A DNA stretch of 64,000 nt. It comes from Lentzea guizhouensis (GTDB lineage: Bacteria > Actinomycetota > Actinomycetes > Mycobacteriales > Pseudonocardiaceae). The position numbers were made by a program, and so were the translations under genes. Numbering within the stretch: position 1 is the first letter of the stretch; every line of letters starts with the position of its first letter. Location: NCBI RefSeq assembly GCF_001701025.1, contig NZ_CP016793.1, positions 1,860,001 through 1,924,000 of the forward strand. Direction: 5' to 3'. Below the pieces are notes generated by a model. That model was not told the DNA's origin. It made no database searches and saw only the letters and a list, made by a program, of their open reading frames with translations. Shown in pieces: positions 47,934 to 54,569 of this stretch.

Positions 47934-48216
47934 GGCTTTCCAGCTCCTGCACGCGCGCCTTGAGCGTCTCGATCTCGGTGCCGAGCCGCTGCAGCGCCCA
48001 GTCGACCTCGCTCATCTTGTAGCCGCGGAACACCTGCTGGAACTTCAGCCCGCGGACGTCCTCCGCGGTGATGTCGTCCGCCGGCAACCGCGTCGGCGAG
48101 GCACCGGGCGGCAACGGGGCGAGCTCCTCGCCGCGGCCGAACACCAACGCCGCGAGCAGGAACACCACTGCCGCGACGGCCACCATCACGATCAGGTAGA
48201 TCAGGGCGTTGGTCAC
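47920..48216 (-). CDS. DivIVA-domain membrane protein (Rv1209-like)
   Basis: This 98-residue protein has an N-terminal membrane helix (ALIYLIVMVAVAAVVFLLAA) and then a DivIVA-like segment (LPADDITAEDVRGLKFQQV, FRGYKMSEVDWALQRLGTEI) ending in a short coiled coil. The same small protein precedes tagA in mycobacteria. DivIVA domains bind curved membranes at poles and septa. Confidence 0.85.
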   Translation of the reverse strand: MTNALIYLIVMVAVAAVVFLLAALVFGRGEELAPLPPGASPTRLPADDITAEDVRGLKFQQVFRGYKMSEVDWALQRLGTEIETLKARVQELESHERA

Positions 48217-48878
48217 GCGACGATCGTGGCACAGCTCAGACAGCGACGAGCGAGCAGACCGAGCCGGACGATCACCGCCCACGTGATCAGGCTGGCGACG
48301 CTCATCGGCAACGACTGCAGCAACCTGCCGACGTCGAGGTGCGCGGTGGCCGCGATGATGGCGAGGTTGCCCAGCAGCACCATGGCGACGGCCCCGATCG
48401 CGACGCCGGCGGAGGCCTTGGCCAGCAGCTTCGTGTCGTACCCGCGGGCGAGCACGCGGCCCAGGACGAGAGCCGCGAGTGCGATGCCGGACGCGATGCC
48501 GCTCGCCAGGTCGTTGGCCTTGGCGATGAAGAGGTACCACTGCGGCGGCATCGCGCCGAAGTCCTGCCACGGCCCGATGAGCAGCATCCGCCCGTACTCC
48601 CACGCCATGTGCATGAGCGGGAGCACGATCGCCACCCAGATGAGCGTCCTCGTGCCGTAGGCGACGGCGAGCTCGGCCTGGTACTCGTTCGCGATCTCCC
48701 TGACCGGCCCGAACTCCTGGACGGCCCTCCGCTGCGCTTCGTGCTCGTCGAGCCCGCGGTCGAGGTAGGCGTCGGTGGCGTCGGTGAGACTGTCCTTGGT
48801 CTCGGTGAGGAGGTCGCGGACCTGCTTCCGCGAGCCCTGCAACCGCGACCCGAGATCGGTCACGTACCGCTCGATCAC
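48213..48878 (-). CDS. permease-prefix-domain membrane protein
   Basis: This 221-residue protein has a helical cytoplasmic start (VIERYVTDLGSRLQGSRKQV, then a DLLTETKDSLTDATDAYLDRG segment typical of permease prefix domain 1), followed by four membrane helices. It overlaps the PadR gene by GTGA. PadR plus permease-prefix pairs are common in actinobacteria; the pair is thought to control or sense a membrane system, but no substrate is known. Confidence 0.75.
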   Translation of the reverse strand: MIERYVTDLGSRLQGSRKQVRDLLTETKDSLTDATDAYLDRGLDEHEAQRRAVQEFGPVREIANEYQAELAVAYGTRTLIWVAIVLPLMHMAWEYGRMLLIGPWQDFGAMPPQWYLFIAKANDLASGIASGIALAALVLGRVLARGYDTKLLAKASAGVAIGAVAMVLLGNLAIIAATAHLDVGRLLQSLPMSVASLITWAVIVRLGLLARRCLSCATIVA

Positions 48879-49213
48879 ATCTGCGCCCACTTGCCACCAC
48901 CCCCCAGCACGCCGTCGATGACCGTCGTGAACTCGCGCCACGCGCTGCGCTCGGCGTTCAGCGCCCGCTGGCCCGCCGACGTGAGCTTGTAGGTGCGGCG
49001 TTTGCGGCCGCCGACCGTGCTCCAGTCGCTCGTGACGTGGCCCGCGCGCTCCAGCCTGCGCAGCGCGGGGTAGACCGTGCCGGTGGGCAGGTCCAGCGCA
49101 CCGCCGCTGAGCTGCTGCAACGCCTCGATGATCGCGTAGCCGTGCAGTTGCCGACCGTCGAGCGTCGCGAGCAGCAACGCGTCCAGGTGGCCACGCAGCG
49201 CATCGGGCTTCAT
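48875..49213 (-). CDS. PadR-family transcriptional regulator
   Basis: This 112-residue winged-helix protein begins MKPDALRGHLDALLLATL and carries HGYAIIEALQQLSGG, LPTGTVYPALRRLERAGHVTS and a wing VGGRKRRTYKLT, the standard PadR signature. Its ATG is 8 bases after TAGAGT, and a near-perfect palindrome covers the start and the -10. It is probably autoregulated and cotranscribed with the permease-prefix gene. Confidence 0.9.
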   Translation of the reverse strand: MKPDALRGHLDALLLATLDGRQLHGYAIIEALQQLSGGALDLPTGTVYPALRRLERAGHVTSDWSTVGGRKRRTYKLTSAGQRALNAERSAWREFTTVIDGVLGGGGKWAQM

Positions 49214-49233
49214 GAGTAGTGACTCTACTGATG
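49211..49233. promoter_or_regulatory. PadR operator-like palindrome over its own promoter
   Basis: CATGAGTAG and CTACTGATG (8 of 9 bases complementary) flank TGACT. The element covers the PadR start codon and its -10 TAGAGT (49227-49222), the position expected of an autorepressor site. Confidence 0.6.
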
Positions 49234-49288: not shown

Positions 49289-49311
49289 TGTAGCCAGGCT
49301 ACATATAGCGT
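49289..49311 (+). promoter_or_regulatory. cydA operator and -10
   Basis: A perfect TGTAGCC-A-GGCTACA palindrome (49289-49303) is followed 2 bases later by the -10 TAGCGT (49306-49311), 8 bases before the ATG. It is likely the control site of the cyd operon. Confidence 0.6.
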
Positions 49312-49319
49312 CCCAACTC

Positions 49320-50480
49320 ATGAGCGCAGCAGACCTCGCCCGCCTCCAGTTCGCCCTGACGACGTCGTTCCACTTCCTGTTCGTGCTGCTCACGCTCGGC
49401 CTGGTGACCCTGCTGGTGGTCATGCAGCTCCGCTGGACGATCACGAGGAACCCGGTGCACGAGCGGATGACGCGCTTCTGGGGGCGCATCTACGTCATCA
49501 ACTACGCGCTGGGGATCGTCACCGGCATCGTCATGGAGTTCCAGTTCGGGCTGAACTGGTCGGGGCTCGCGACCTACGCCGGCGACGTGTTCGGGGCGCC
49601 GCTCGCCATCGAGACGCTGGTCGCGTTCTTCCTGGAGTCGACGTTCCTGGGGCTGTGGATCTTCGGGTACGGCCGGCTCAACCGGTGGGTGCACCTGAGC
49701 CTGCTGGTGCTGACGGCGCTCACGGCGTTCGCGTCGGCGTTCTGGATCATGGCGGCGAACGCGTTCCTGCAGAACCCCGTCGGCTACCGGGTCGAGGGTG
49801 ACGTGTTGCGGCTGGACGACTTCTCGGCGTTGCTGAGCAACCCGACGTTCACGAGCGCGCTGATGCACGTCATCTTCGCGTCGATCACCGTCGGCGGGGT
49901 GTTCGTGACCGGGGTGTCGGCCTACCACTTCATCAAGCGCACGCAGGAAACCGACTTCTTCCGGCGGTCGCTCAGGCTGGGTGTCGTCACGACAGCGCTG
50001 GCCACGCCGTCGCTCATCGGGGCCGGGTTCGCGCAGTTCCCGGTGATCGCGAAGTACCAGCCGGGCAAGAGCGACGCGGCGCAGTGGATCGGGGCGCCGC
50101 TCGGGTTCATGATCATAATTGGGATGACGCTGACGATGGTCAGCTGGCTGACAGTGCCGCTGCTGATCAAGGATGCCGTGATCAAGCTCCGGTTTCCGTT
50201 GTACCTCATGGTGATCGGCATTCCACTGCCGTTCGCGGCCGCGATCTTCGGCTGGGTCTTCCGCGAGGTCGGCAGGCAGCCGTGGCTGATCTACGGGCTG
50301 CTCAGGACCGAGGACGCGGTGTCGCATGTGGACGCGAGCCAGATCTTGTTGTCGCTCATCGTGTTCACGTCGTTGTTCGCACTGCTGGCTGTCGCCGACT
50401 GGGCGTTGATCGCACGCGCGGTCCGCCGTGGCCCGGACACGACGCCGGCTCCGGTTTCGCCGTTGGTGGTGACGCTCTGA
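49320..50480 (+). CDS. cydA: cytochrome bd oxidase subunit I, short form
   Basis: This 386-residue membrane protein has ALTTSFHFLFVLLTLG (His of the high-spin heme), MHVIFASITVGGVFV (a second heme His), GFMIIIGM (a Met-type heme ligand region) and GRQPWLIYGLLRT near the C-terminus. CydA is normally about 480-520 residues: the periplasmic Q-loop after YQPGKSDAAQ is almost absent. The KxAAxE-type quinol motif reads KSDAAQ. It overlaps cydB by one base. This is probably a genuine but minimal bd-type oxidase. Confidence 0.85.
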   Translation: MSAADLARLQFALTTSFHFLFVLLTLGLVTLLVVMQLRWTITRNPVHERMTRFWGRIYVINYALGIVTGIVMEFQFGLNWSGLATYAGDVFGAPLAIETLVAFFLESTFLGLWIFGYGRLNRWVHLSLLVLTALTAFASAFWIMAANAFLQNPVGYRVEGDVLRLDDFSALLSNPTFTSALMHVIFASITVGGVFVTGVSAYHFIKRTQETDFFRRSLRLGVVTTALATPSLIGAGFAQFPVIAKYQPGKSDAAQWIGAPLGFMIIIGMTLTMVSWLTVPLLIKDAVIKLRFPLYLMVIGIPLPFAAAIFGWVFREVGRQPWLIYGLLRTEDAVSHVDASQILLSLIVFTSLFALLAVADWALIARAVRRGPDTTPAPVSPLVVTL

Positions 50481-51100
50481 TGGAAATGCTCTGGCTGACG
50501 ATTCTCGGTGTGCTGACGGTGGGTTACTTCGCGTTGGCCGGGTTCGACTACGGCACGGGACTCCTGCTTCCGTTCAGCGACAGGACCAAGGCGTTGCGGC
50601 GCATGACGCCGTTCTTCCTCGGCAACGAGGTGTGGCTGGTGGCGGCGATCGGGGTGCTGTTCGCGGCGTTCCCCCGACTCGAAGGCGAGCTGTTGTCCGG
50701 AGCGCACAGCGTCTTCACGCTCACGCTCGCCGGGCTCGTCCTCTTCATGGCCGCGGTGCAGCTGCGGTTGTGGTGGTGGCTGGTGTTCACCGGCGCGCTC
50801 ATGGTGTCCACCGGCTGGGGGCTGTTCCTGGTGCACCTGCTCGACGCGCCGGTGCCGGTCGCCCTGGTCATGCCCGCGCTGTTCGCGGTGCACGGATGGG
50901 TTTTCCAGCACCGGAAGAAGCTCCTCCCGGTGACCGGAGTGCTCGTCGCGCTGCCGATCCCGCTCGCCTTCAGCCGGATCGACACGACCGGGCTGATGGC
51001 GCACGCCGACACGCTCGGCCTGCTCGCGTGGGTCGCGGTCCCGGTCATCCCGTTGGTGGTGTTGGTGCAGTGGTCGATCGTCGCCATCTCCTCGCGCTGA
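50480..51100 (+). CDS. cydB: cytochrome bd oxidase subunit II, short form
   Basis: This 206-residue protein starts with the conserved YFALAGFDYGTGLLLPF and has FLGNEVWLVAAIGVLFAAFP, where most CydB proteins have WDGNEVWL. About six or seven membrane helices are present instead of eight, and the length is about 130 residues below the usual size. The loss of the conserved Trp-Asp before GNEVWL may alter the proton pathway. It is translationally coupled to cydA. Confidence 0.8.
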   Translation: MEMLWLTILGVLTVGYFALAGFDYGTGLLLPFSDRTKALRRMTPFFLGNEVWLVAAIGVLFAAFPRLEGELLSGAHSVFTLTLAGLVLFMAAVQLRLWWWLVFTGALMVSTGWGLFLVHLLDAPVPVALVMPALFAVHGWVFQHRKKLLPVTGVLVALPIPLAFSRIDTTGLMAHADTLGLLAWVAVPVIPLVVLVQWSIVAISSR

Positions 51101-52395
51101 TCCCGGTCCCGTTCCTGGTGCTGGCGCAGGCCGAGCTGCTCGCCGCGGTGCTGAGCGGTGGTACCGGGTACGTGCTGCTGTGCCTGACGATCGCGGCGCG
51201 GGTGCTCGTCTGGTGGGGGCACCGGGAGCTCGCTCACCGCGCTGCCGAACGGACCCGCACCAGACTGCGCGAAGCGTTCCTGCGCACCCCCGGGACCAGG
51301 GCCGGTGAGGTCGCGACGCTGGTCACGCGGGGCGTGCACGACGTCACGCCGTACGTGACCGGGTACCTGCCGCAGCAGGTCCTCGCGGTCGCGGTCCCGA
51401 TCGCGGTGGTCATCAGGCTGGCGTTCGCGGACCTCACGGCCGCGCTGACGATCCTCGTCACGCTGCCGCTGGTCCCGGTCTTCGGGGCACTGGTCGGGGC
51501 GCACACCCGCGAGCGGACCGCACGGCAGTGGGACGCGCTGGCGACGCTCGGCGGGCACTTCCTCGACGTGGTCAAGGGAATCGGCACGCTGCGGGCGTTC
51601 GGACGGGCCGAGGCGCAGTCCGCGACGGTCCGCAAGCTCGCCTCGCAGCACATGACCGAGACGATGTCGGCGCTCCGAGTCGCGTTCCTGTCCGCGTTCG
51701 TGCTGGAGCTGGTGGCCACGATGTCGGTGGCGCTGGTCGCCGTGCCGGTCGGGCTGCGGCTGCTCGACGGAGGCGTGCCGCTGCACACCGCGTTGCTCGT
51801 GCTCTTCCTGGCACCAGAAGCTTTCTTGCCGTTGAGAGCAGCCGGTGCGCAGTACCACGCGAGCGCGCAGGGCCGCGAGGTGCTGAGCAAGGTCCCGGCG
51901 CACACCGCACACGACGGCGTGGCACCGCCCGACCTCGGCACGGCCGAGATCGTGTTCGACCACGTCAGCGTCCGCAGCCTCAAGGACTTCTCGCTGCGGA
52001 TCGAACCGGGCGAACGGGTCGCGCTGGTCGGCCCGAGCGGCGCCGGCAAGAGCACGGTCCTGGGCCTGCTGCTGGGGTTCGTCACGCCCGACAGCGGCCG
52101 GGTGCTCGTCGGCGGCGTGGACCTCGCGGAGATCGACCGCCGGAAGTGGCTCGACGCGCTGTCCTGGGTGCCCCAACGCCCCACGCTCGTCCCGCCGAAC
52201 CTCTCGTCCGGCGAACGGCAACGCGTCGCGCTCGCCACCGCGCTCAACCGGCGGCAAGCCGGACTGTTCCTGCTCGACGAACCCACCGCACACCTCGACG
52301 CGGAGACGGAGGCACTTGTGCTGGAAGCGGCCAGGGAGTTCACGAAGGGGCGCACCGCCGTGATCGTGGCGCACCGTCCGGCGCTGCTCGAATAG
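51070..52395 (+). CDS. cydD: ABC exporter subunit CydD, short form
   Basis: This 441-residue membrane-ATPase fusion has helices from residue 10, an ATPase domain with Walker A GPSGAGKST, Q-loop VPQRP and signature LSSGERQRV, then Walker B LFLLDEPTAHLD. Usual CydD proteins are about 530-570 residues; here roughly 45 residues of the helical region between the Q-loop and the signature are missing. CydDC exports cysteine/glutathione for bd oxidase assembly. A TAG at 52393 interrupts the end; the frame continues VDRVVAV to a TGA at 52417-52419. Confidence 0.8.
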   Translation: MVDRRHLLALIPVPFLVLAQAELLAAVLSGGTGYVLLCLTIAARVLVWWGHRELAHRAAERTRTRLREAFLRTPGTRAGEVATLVTRGVHDVTPYVTGYLPQQVLAVAVPIAVVIRLAFADLTAALTILVTLPLVPVFGALVGAHTRERTARQWDALATLGGHFLDVVKGIGTLRAFGRAEAQSATVRKLASQHMTETMSALRVAFLSAFVLELVATMSVALVAVPVGLRLLDGGVPLHTALLVLFLAPEAFLPLRAAGAQYHASAQGREVLSKVPAHTAHDGVAPPDLGTAEIVFDHVSVRSLKDFSLRIEPGERVALVGPSGAGKSTVLGLLLGFVTPDSGRVLVGGVDLAEIDRRKWLDALSWVPQRPTLVPPNLSSGERQRVALATALNRRQAGLFLLDEPTAHLDAETEALVLEAAREFTKGRTAVIVAHRPALLE

Positions 52396-52415
52396 GTCGA
52401 CCGGGTGGTGGCGGT

Positions 52416-53714
52416 GTGAAGCTCGCCATCCTCGTCGGCACCCTCGCCGAACTGGCCGGGGTCGGCCTCACCGCCACCGCCACCTGGCTGGTCATGCGCG
52501 CCGCCGAACACCCGCCGATGCACGCGCTGACCGTCGCGATCGTCGCCGTCCGCACGCTCGCGCTGGCCAAGGGAGCCCTGCGCTACCTCGAACGCCTGAC
52601 GAGCCACAGAGCCGTGCTCAGCGAGGCCGTCGAGCTGCGCGGCCGGGTCTACGACGACCTCGTCGAACGCAGGCACGTCCCGTCCGGCACCGCGCTCACC
52701 CGCATCGTCACCAACGTCGACCAGCACCTCGACGCCAAGCTCCGCACCACGCTGCCGTGGGTCACCGCCGCCCTCGCCGGCACGACCGTGGCCGTCGTCG
52801 CGGCCTCGTTGCCGCTGGTGATCGGCCTGGTGATCAACCTCGCCCTGCTCCCCTGGCTCGCCACCCGCACCCGCGAGGACCTGACCCCGTTGCGCGCCAG
52901 GCTCACCGACCAGACCACCGAACTGGTCCACAGCCGTGAGGAGCTCATCGCCCACGACCTGTTCGAGGAGAAGCTCCAAGCAGCGACCAGAACCGCGAGA
53001 GCGTTGTCCCGCAGGGAACGCACCCGCGACCTCACCCCGCTCGCCATCGCCGTCCAGTTCGGCGCGGCCCTGCTCATGCTCGCCCAGCACGAGCCCGCCT
53101 GGCTGATCATGGCCGCCGTCGCGACCTTCGAGATCACCGTCCCGCTCGCCGCACTCACGAGGCCGTCCCCGGAACCGGCCGACGAACCACAGCCCGCCGA
53201 GATCAGCGAAACCCCGGCGCTGCAGGGGAAGACGGCCATCGTCGGCCCGAGCGGCTCCGGCAAGACCACGCTGCTCAACGCCATCGCCCGCCGGCTCGAA
53301 CCCAGCCGGGGCGCGCTGGCCGACGCCCACGTCTTCCACACCACGGTCCGCACCAACGTCCTGCTGGCCAAACCCGATGCGACCCGGGAAGAACTCGACC
53401 GGGCCGCGCGGATCACCGAGCTCGACCTCGACTGGGACCGGGTCGTCGGCGAACGCGGTGAGGAGATCTCAGGCGGTCAGCGCCAACGCCTGATCCTCAC
53501 CAGAACGGTGCTCGCGAACCCGGAGATCGTGTTGCTCGACGAGCCGACCGAAGGCCTTGACCCGCAGCAGGCGGACCGGGTGCTCGGGAAGGTCCTCGAC
53601 GACTGCCGGGGCACCGCGCTCGTCGTCACCCACCGCGAAGAGCAGCTAGCGCTCTTCGACCACGTGCACCATCGGCGGCCGGTCGGCCACGAGCACGTCG
53701 GCCGAGTCGGGTAA
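52416..53714 (+). CDS. cydC: ABC exporter subunit CydC, short form
   Basis: This 432-residue half-exporter begins VKLAILVGTLAELAGVGLTA and has the RAAEHPPMHALTVAIVAVR, then LRYLERLTSHR block typical of CydC. The ATPase part has GPSGSGKTT and SGGQRQRLIL, then LLDEPTEGLD. About 20 residues including the usual Q-loop region are missing after the Walker A helix. The GTG at 52416 overlaps the ancestral end of cydD (GTGTGA). The last residues run opposite gpgS over 69 bases. Confidence 0.8.
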   Translation: MKLAILVGTLAELAGVGLTATATWLVMRAAEHPPMHALTVAIVAVRTLALAKGALRYLERLTSHRAVLSEAVELRGRVYDDLVERRHVPSGTALTRIVTNVDQHLDAKLRTTLPWVTAALAGTTVAVVAASLPLVIGLVINLALLPWLATRTREDLTPLRARLTDQTTELVHSREELIAHDLFEEKLQAATRTARALSRRERTRDLTPLAIAVQFGAALLMLAQHEPAWLIMAAVATFEITVPLAALTRPSPEPADEPQPAEISETPALQGKTAIVGPSGSGKTTLLNAIARRLEPSRGALADAHVFHTTVRTNVLLAKPDATREELDRAARITELDLDWDRVVGERGEEISGGQRQRLILTRTVLANPEIVLLDEPTEGLDPQQADRVLGKVLDDCRGTALVVTHREEQLALFDHVHHRRPVGHEHVGRVG

Positions 53715-54569
53715 CCACTCCCCGCCGACCTGCACGAACTGCGTCAGCGTCCGATCCCGGGAGCCCGCCTCCACCTCGACCCCGCACCGGGCCAGCGCCG
53801 TCCCCGTGATCTGCGCCGACATCACGCCGAGCTGCAGCAACGACCGGTTCCGGTGCTTGCGCACGCCCAGGTTCACCTGCGCCAGCGCCGCCAGCCCGTG
53901 CATCCGGTGCACGTCCAGCAACAGCCCGATCTCCACCCCGTACCCGGCCGCGAACGGCACTGACTCCAGGAAGGACCGCGTCGCCGCGTACTCACCGCCG
54001 AGCGGCTGGACCACCCCGGACAGCTCCGGCCGCAAGGTGTTCAGCAACGGCCGCGCCACCAGCTCGGTGACCCGCCCGCCACCGGTGCTCTCCACCCGCA
54101 ACGGCCGCCGGTAGAAGCCCTTCACCAGGTGCACGTCCGGCACCTCCAGCAACGGCCCCAGCAACGCCGTCACGAACGCCGTCTCCGGGTCCACCAGGTC
54201 GGAGTCCAGGAAGACGACCAGGTCACCGGTGGTCGCCGCGAGCGAGCGCCACAGCACCTCGCCCTTGCCGGGCAACGGTTCCAGCCACGGCACGACGTCC
54301 TCGCGCAGCACCACCCGCGCCCCGGCCTCGGCGGCCACGGCGACGGTCCGGTCGGTCGACCCGGAGTCCATCACCACCAGCTCGTCCACCAGCGTCCCGA
54401 GCAACGGCCGCACCACGGCGACGACGGCACCCACGGTCTCTTCCTCGTTCAACGCGGGCAGCACGACGGACACCGTCCGCCCGCGCTTCAACGCCACCAG
54501 CTGCTCGACCGTCCACTCCGGCTGCTGCCAGGTGTGCGTGCCGAACCAGGACTCCACAGCGGGCAGCAT
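53646..54569 (-). CDS. gpgS: glucosyl-3-phosphoglycerate synthase
   Basis: This 307-residue GT81/GT2-like enzyme has VSVVLPALNEEETVGAVVAV, LVVMDSGSTDRTVAVAAEAG, PLPGKGEVLWRSL and VFLDSDLVDP, where DSD is the metal site. GGEYAATRSFLESVPFAAGY is the C-terminal conserved block. It makes glucosyl-3-phosphoglycerate from UDP-glucose, the first step to glucosylglycerate and methylglucose polysaccharides. The orthologue Rv1208 is flanked by folP2, as here. Confidence 0.92.
   Translation of the reverse strand: MLPAVESWFGTHTWQQPEWTVEQLVALKRGRTVSVVLPALNEEETVGAVVAVVRPLLGTLVDELVVMDSGSTDRTVAVAAEAGARVVLREDVVPWLEPLPGKGEVLWRSLAATTGDLVVFLDSDLVDPETAFVTALLGPLLEVPDVHLVKGFYRRPLRVESTGGGRVTELVARPLLNTLRPELSGVVQPLGGEYAATRSFLESVPFAAGYGVEIGLLLDVHRMHGLAALAQVNLGVRKHRNRSLLQLGVMSAQITGTALARCGVEVEAGSRDRTLTQFVQVGGEWLPDSADVLVADRPPMVHVVEER

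Follow-up and report, generated by a model that had tools for sequence, protein, structure and literature searches.

Can a cytochrome bd operon whose four proteins all fall well short of the usual length still be a working system, or is it being lost? This question is raised by a cydABDC operon of Lentzea guizhouensis, found in a stretch of 64,000 nucleotides (hereafter the window) that corresponds to bases 1860001–1924000 of the source genome, a single contig of 10.0 Mb. The original prediction, made from the letters of the window, described proteins of 386, 206, 441 and 432 residues with all four frames open, which was borne out at 49320–53714, and proposed either a minimal oxidase lineage or coordinated decay. 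The four genes are as follows:

49320..50480, plus strand: cydA, 386 residues, bd oxidase subunit I without the Q-loop body, axial heme ligands and proton-path glutamates kept (PF01654, 383.8 bits)
50480..51100, plus strand: cydB, 206 residues, bd oxidase subunit II lacking a two-helix hairpin, overlapping cydA and cydD (PF02322, 81.7 bits)
51070..52395, plus strand: cydD, 441 residues, half of an ATP-binding cassette (ABC) heme exporter, without the Q-loop-to-signature segment of the ATPase domain (TIGR02857, 435.8 bits)
52416..53714, plus strand: cydC, 432 residues, the other ABC heme-exporter half, without the A-loop strands and the Q-loop, the segment before the signature being kept (TIGR02868, 235.8 bits)

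The gene names agree with the Pfam and NCBIfam profile matches; the NCBIfam cut-off of 435 for CydD (TIGR02857) was reached, and that of 329 for CydC (TIGR02868) was not.

The compact operon occurs genus-wide under purifying selection and was shortened stepwise and in frame, with the residues for heme binding, proton movement and ATP hydrolysis kept. We consider it likely that Lentzea maintains and regulates a second, miniaturised cytochrome bd operon beside a full-length one, and this operon is a real, selected and probably regulated miniature of a known system. Among the titles and abstracts listed by searches on Lentzea cytochrome bd, PadR with cydABDC, shortened bd oxidases and Streptomyces cyd copies, none describes it.

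Conservation of the Compact Operon

The operon was present in all 24 genomes of the genus examined, whose named members are almost all Lentzea, with 62–91% identity and near-fixed lengths, and all four genes are short at each of the 23 loci other than that of the window. CydA spans 384–387 residues, and in the 23 other genomes its profile match consists of two pieces, skipping about positions 251–315. CydB measures 206–208 residues, apart from two copies of 215 and 224, and CydC 430–433, apart from two of 447 and 451 (CydC of locus L042 was left out of this count, as the fetched sequence ends inside the gene). CydD has 449 residues at 22 of the 23 other loci; the remaining copy, at L045, is frameshifted (430), and that of the window (441) ends eight codons before its 449-residue orthologues. 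All three gene junctions overlap (−1, −31 and −4 nt) at 20 of the 23 loci, the exceptions being L034, L042 and L045, while the cydD–cydC junction of the window is +20 because of the early stop in its cydD. The same or nearly the same lengths in 23 other assemblies rule out an assembly artefact.

Within 297 genomes of the family, matches of at least 68% identity reaching the end of the 206-residue CydB were obtained for all 24 genus genomes (split by a small insert in one, G005) and for none of the other 273, where the best among the matches listed had 62% identity and covered residues 2–143. A search of the protein database with the compact CydB matched 588 proteins, of which the best 120 were examined. 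The top 50 of these are 205–208 residues long and 68–91% identical, and their named sources are Lentzea, except for one record of Nocardia sp. NRRL S-836 and one Pseudonocardiales bacterium. They are followed, among the matches listed, mostly by CydB proteins of 274–284 residues from Saccharothrix, Actinosynnema and Umezawaea; a few other short proteins appear after the top 50 of the 120, two of them of 172 and 161 residues. A metagenomic CydB (P0096; 233 residues, 46% identity) is, judged by eye, short at the place of the same hairpin, and may perhaps represent a sister compact lineage. Two candidates for a compact CydB outside Lentzea were rejected: the 167-residue protein of L148 continues in another frame, and that of L097 (185 residues) runs into foreign sequence after the shared part.

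Oxidase Subunits CydA and CydB

Relatives were collected with the CydB motif PFFL[GA]NEVWL, which defines a clade of at least 119 stretches, 106 of the 119 carrying a complete CydB frame; as the motif was itself the query, it marks the clade by construction, and this spread is a lower bound. The CydA alignment comprised the 24 compact sequences, 86 further rows of this clade, among which three repeat Lentzea records, and 22 full-length sequences. Its columns are named here by E. coli numbers (H19, E99, E107, H186, K252, M393 and E445). The columns of H19, E99, E107, H186, M393 and E445 are invariant in the compact, clade and full-length groups, the axial heme ligands (His, His, Met and Glu) and the proton-path Glu pair being kept in 24/24 Lentzea and 86/86 further clade sequences. 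The claim that CydA lacks the Q-loop holds for the loop body, but the first motif, QPxK, is still there, and its Lys (K252 column) is kept in 24/24 Lentzea and 85/86 further rows. Of the features that characterise the qOR quinol oxidases, a Q-loop between helices 6 and 7 with conserved Lys and Glu, all 24 compact proteins have kept the Lys and lack both the Glu and the loop body.

In CydB, the motif PFFLGNEVWL stands in place of PVWDGNEVWL of Mycobacterium smegmatis (7d5i_B), Phe-Leu replacing Trp-Asp. The loss of Trp-Asp before GNEVWL had therefore been recognised correctly, but it is common to actinobacterial relatives and not peculiar to this operon. The CydB of the Lentzea branch lacks one two-helix hairpin, which reduces it from about 281 to 207 residues. 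The predicted model of the compact protein nevertheless has the CydB fold, as expected of the CydB partner in a member of the bd superfamily. A split gene, with the missing part of CydB encoded elsewhere, was ruled out, since the gap lies inside the protein and the last helix, which is still there, matches the C-terminal end of full CydB in the alignment.

Transporter Subunits CydD and CydC

Two ABC halves, each with Walker A, signature, Walker B and H-loop, as expected of CydDC, were found at all scorable loci of the genus. In CydD, Walker A Lys327, Q-loop Gln369, signature Ser379 and Gly381, Walker B Asp403 and Glu404 and H-loop His435 are invariant (23/23), as are Lys283 of Walker A (24/24) and Ser352, Gly354, Asp375, Glu376 and His406 (23/23) in CydC. 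The heme-clamp histidines, in transmembrane helix 6 of CydD and helix 2 of CydC, are likewise kept (H263, 23/23; H64, 24/24), and both are invariant in the wider alignments (37/37 CydD and 36/36 CydC rows). H263 aligns with the His of the AFHAA motif in M. smegmatis CydD, which by count appears to be the axial ligand His276 named in PMC10691846, and H64 aligns with an M. smegmatis CydC histidine. CydC H64 may also be the counterpart of E. coli H85. The heme and ATPase motifs thus remain as originally stated: in no scorable copy do the ligands of the hemes, the clamp histidines or the catalytic residues of the ATPase domains vary.

A canonical ABC exporter ATPase domain has a complete Q-loop-to-signature segment, and a Q-loop in both halves; here the segment is missing from CydD and the Q-loop from CydC. 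Between the PQR motif and the signature, CydD has seven residues in 22 of 24 Lentzea genomes, compared with 37–54 in relatives, so the predicted absence of the helices in this part of CydD is well founded. The remaining two are L045, which is frameshifted, and L040, which has A for P of the pattern and shows the same gap in the alignment. Measured at 53 other loci, the interval is 37–54 residues in 42, with no value in nine and impossible values in two. In the CydC of the window, no Q-loop glutamine stands between Walker A and ADAHVF, and this glutamine is missing in 24/24 Lentzea; the reported lack of its Q-loop region is real, although the loss is shared with relatives.

CydD has kept its Q-loop and core and lost the pre-signature segment, and CydC has kept that segment and lost the A-loop strands and the Q-loop, which suggests one main composite ATP site. 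In M. smegmatis CydDC, as described in PMC10691846, both ATPase domains lack A-loop regions, arginines rescue ATP binding and ATPase activity persists in the complex; by analogy, a stripped CydDC could therefore work. For E. coli, PMC10374445 gives the CydC site as the hydrolytic one, and describes coupling from the CydD helices to the CydC domain and none from the CydC helices to the CydD domain. The segment lost from compact CydD lies on the domain without such coupling in E. coli, and CydC keeps its own segment, which would fit a transporter in which a single coupled domain is left. CydC is also without a Q-loop, however, so that the sequence does not single out the ATP site that works. Structure-comparison hits beyond CydB and CydDC were set aside as common helical or ABC folds.

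Stepwise Shortening

The original prediction spoke of parallel in-frame loss in four genes, but the losses were stepwise and not one parallel event, some being older than the genus and some lying on the Lentzea branch. Trimming of the CydA Q-loop, the Phe-Leu of CydB and the loss of the CydC Q-loop are older and common to other actinobacteria, while loss of the CydB hairpin and of the CydD Q-loop-to-signature segment is specific to the Lentzea branch. At the position of the CydC Q-loop glutamine, Micromonospora and most Pseudonocardiaceae rows already have Ala or Asp, and Gln is still present in the Streptomyces and Actinomadura rows and in Saccharopolyspora. Lengths of CydA, CydB, CydD and CydC are about 416/335/536/580 in Micromonospora relatives, 387/283/495/467 in Saccharothrix obliqua and mostly 386/207/449/433 in Lentzea; the whole operon has a median of 4401 bp in Lentzea, 4911 bp in S. 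obliqua and 5151–6254 bp at the other complete named loci. On the CydA tree (42 rows, including 8 of the 24 Lentzea), Lentzea is placed beside Saccharothrix among Pseudonocardiaceae, and full-length CydA lies far outside. A second branch with short CydB, mostly of 240–264 residues with one row of 315, comprises Actinomadura, Nonomuraea, Jiangella, some Streptomyces and Saccharopolyspora (L056, L070, L092 and relatives).

Selection and the Full-Length Operon

A full-length cydA, with a frame of 491 residues, is located at 2786480–2787862 of the same genome, in an operon that also has a 326-residue CydB frame and one long frame matching both CydD and CydC. The cell therefore has at its disposal a bd oxidase whose Q-loop is complete, and the compact operon is a second, specialised copy and not the sole bd oxidase. 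The original prediction had named an independent full cyd operon as grounds against its proposal; such an operon exists, but a maintained minimal lineage is not refuted by it. Further CydA copies are present in some Lentzea, with G015 and G020 each having one copy in pieces. Short CydA homologues of about 35% identity were also found at L060 and L061 (genomes G037 and G052), and no CydB, CydD or CydC match to the compact operon was detected within their fetched flanks.

Ratios of nonsynonymous to synonymous substitution rates (dN/dS) were calculated pairwise by the NG86 method for 231 pairs of 22 genomes (210 pairs for cydD, with L045 left out); the pairs are not independent, and the values, uncorrected for relatedness or codon bias, are descriptive. 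The medians were 0.236 for compact cydA, 0.238 for cydB, 0.239 for cydC and 0.168 for cydD, compared with 0.192 for full-length cydA in the same genome pairs. The ATPase parts of CydD and CydC gave 0.198 and 0.186, and the linkers were looser (0.34–0.38). The dS of the compact genes was 1.10 to 1.76 times that of full-length cydA, and in this pairwise comparison of 22 genomes a modestly higher dN was the only hint of relaxed selection in the compact genes. Full-length homologues in close relatives together with relaxed selection had been named as the mark of pure decay: longer homologues do occur in relatives, but relaxed selection was not seen. Retention in 24/24 genomes, dN/dS close to that of the full-length copy and catalytic residues without variation support the minimal oxidase lineage and disfavour coordinated decay.

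Regulatory Region and Neighbouring Genes

Upstream of cydA, the window contains a divergent gene pair and two palindromes:

48213..48941, minus strand: gene of a HAAS-type membrane protein, the PadR partner (PF22564, 25.2 bits, just under the 27-bit cut-off); its start is uncertain and, as listed, it overlaps the PadR gene
48875..49213, minus strand: gene of a PadR-family transcription regulator, divergent from cydA (PF03551, 76.3 bits)
49216..49228, no strand: palindrome GTAG-N5-CTAC, candidate operator, beside the PadR start
49290..49302, no strand: palindrome GTAG-N5-CTAC, candidate operator, 17 nt before cydA

The divergent PadR–HAAS pair adjoins the compact operon in 24/24 genus genomes. 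At the 23 other loci PadR is 92–97% identical and lies 107–256 nt from cydA, and a HAAS homologue stands beside the operon at every one of them. The pair goes with cyd operons of this clade in several actinobacterial families: it also adjoins those of Saccharothrix, Actinokineospora, Amycolatopsis and Rhodococcus rhodnii, and in several Micromonospora it is found at the opposite end of the operon. The Kibdelosporangium sequence (L090) stops too near cydA for an adjacent PadR gene to be visible.

The palindrome has two matches in the 64 kb, against a mean of 0.05 in 100 shuffles, and the copy before cydA is invariant at 24/24 genus loci. The whole 10 Mb genome has two matches to the extended form GTAG-N5-CTAC-NN-ATA, one of them at the cydA locus, and none to its reversed control. 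Of the 84 named loci of the clade that were tested, 32 (three of them Lentzea) have the palindrome no more than 200 nt upstream of cydA and 52 have none in this interval; Micromonospora loci often carry two copies 15 nt apart. These data suggest that PadR binds GTAG-N5-CTAC. At the other end of the operon, a convergent gene for a family-2 glycosyltransferase (53646–54569) shares 69 bases with the 3′ end of cydC.

Proposed Function and Alternative Explanations

If the compact operon is a maintained second oxidase system, CydA and a seven-helix CydB would form a reduced heterodimer still capable of reducing O2 at heme d. With no Q-loop lid, electrons from quinol or another donor would reach heme b558 at an uncovered site near QPxK. 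The stripped CydDC would be the dedicated heme exporter of this oxidase, one composite ATP site possibly doing most of the work, and the divergent PadR, perhaps together with the HAAS protein, would repress both promoters via GTAG-N5-CTAC until membrane or redox stress is signalled. A more specific scheme can be offered only tentatively: a reciprocally dismantled CydDC (CydD minus the helical segment, CydC minus the Q-loop and A-loop strands), in which heme export is driven by a single composite ATP site and a single coupled domain, would serve a bd oxidase without a Q-loop and with a CydB two helices short, its electrons being taken at the open heme b558 site and not in the known quinol pocket.

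Several observations weigh against a functional second oxidase. The R391 column is Gly in 24/24 Lentzea (varied in the clade), and the E257 position is absent together with the Q-loop body from all 24 compact CydA, and therefore the known mode of quinol oxidation is doubtful here. CydC and CydB score under the strict NCBIfam cut-offs, the model of compact CydD is moderate (predicted local distance difference test, pLDDT, 81.7; predicted template modelling score, pTM, 0.57), and the choice of the working ATP site is a guess, the CydC site being the one reported for E. coli in PMC10374445. The dN of the compact genes is 1.35 to 2.11 times that of full-length cydA. Three of the 24 loci are damaged or disturbed, by the early stop in cydD of the window, the cydD frameshift of L045 and the insert of L042; the last, in a Lentzea albidocapillata assembly, is 1.4 kb long, splits the operon between cydA and cydB and encodes what looks by eye like a TnpB-like protein of IS605 type. 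These are the sole lesions seen in the 24 loci. The support itself comes from sequence and models.

Of the alternatives, the one that survives best, though improbable, is that compact CydAB is no longer an oxidase and uses its hemes to sense redox state or gases, or serves as a sink for heme or electrons tied to the PadR–HAAS switch. Such a role would suit the loss of R391 and E257 along with the body of the Q-loop, the absence of two helices from CydB and the constant PadR–HAAS neighbourhood; however, the heme ligands and proton-path glutamates that were kept would be needless for a pure sensor, and the dedicated CydDC has been retained.

We regard as very unlikely the erosion of a redundant second cyd operon by in-frame deletions while the full-length operon does the work. 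The presence of that operon and the three lesions are in line with such decay, but median dN/dS values of 0.17–0.24, with 0.50 (cydB) as the highest for any single pair, speak against it, as do the invariance of the catalytic residues and the palindrome, lengths nearly frozen over 24 genomes and the top 50 database clusters, and the related metagenomic CydB apparently short at the same place.

According to PMC8413341 and PMC8951039, the Q-loop is the basis for classing bd oxidases, and is held to be a quinol-binding site and a tuberculosis drug-target region. A 2026 cryo-EM study (PMC13189123) states that Lys252, Glu257 and Glu280 stabilise the Q-loop, separately from the quinol contacts, and lists R391 among the aurachin-site residues; the loss of the lid therefore need not end quinol oxidation. 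There is little chance, all the same, that this is an ordinary short-Q-loop quinol oxidase with quinol oxidation of the known type and only peripheral pieces missing, since, for all the near-universal QPxK Lys, almost no loop is left as a lid, R391 is Gly, and it is said in PMC8951039 that one bd form cannot take the Q-loop of another, the exception being that of bd-II placed into bd-I of E. coli.

A selected natural bd enzyme without a Q-loop and with a hairpin-less CydB would separate the essentials of heme assembly and O2 reduction from the dispensable, and a shortened operon apparently kept by selection shows how much of the oxidase machinery and its helper transporter may be dispensable. 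The compact CydD also raises the question of whether the ATPase domain of an ABC transporter can remain functional once the pre-signature segment is gone. The order of the losses is open to laboratory test because intermediates survive in Amycolatopsis, Saccharothrix and Lentzea, and the PadR–HAAS pair with its palindrome offers a ready entry to the regulation of the operon.

Comparison with Known Systems

The direct relatives of the compact operon are the members of the PFFL[GA]NEVWL clade (Saccharothrix, Amycolatopsis, Kibdelosporangium, Micromonospora, Streptomyces, Nonomuraea and others), which share trimmed Q-loops and, in several genera, the palindrome; the adjacent PadR–HAAS pair is shared by Saccharothrix, Amycolatopsis and Actinokineospora members. 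They differ in having CydB of 240–360 residues in complete unbroken frames, a CydD gap of 37–54 residues at 42 of 53 loci and operons of 4911–6254 bp. From the CydAB structures solved for actinobacteria (Corynebacterium glutamicum 8b4o, M. smegmatis 7d5i and M. tuberculosis 7nkz) the compact oxidase differs in its missing Q-loop body and replaced R391; the CydB chains of these structures are 333–360 residues long, whereas the compact protein has 206, with the hairpin gone and PFFL for PVWD. For compact CydD and for the membrane part of CydC, the closest solved relative by sequence is M. smegmatis CydDC (8ipq, 8ipr; PMC10691846). The compact transporter resembles it in the retained clamp histidines, and M. 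smegmatis too, according to that report, has deletions around the A-loop in both ATPase domains. Unlike the M. smegmatis complex, compact CydD lacks about 40 residues between the Q-loop and the signature, and compact CydC has no Q-loop glutamine and only 432 residues, compared with 504–531 in the PDB chains.

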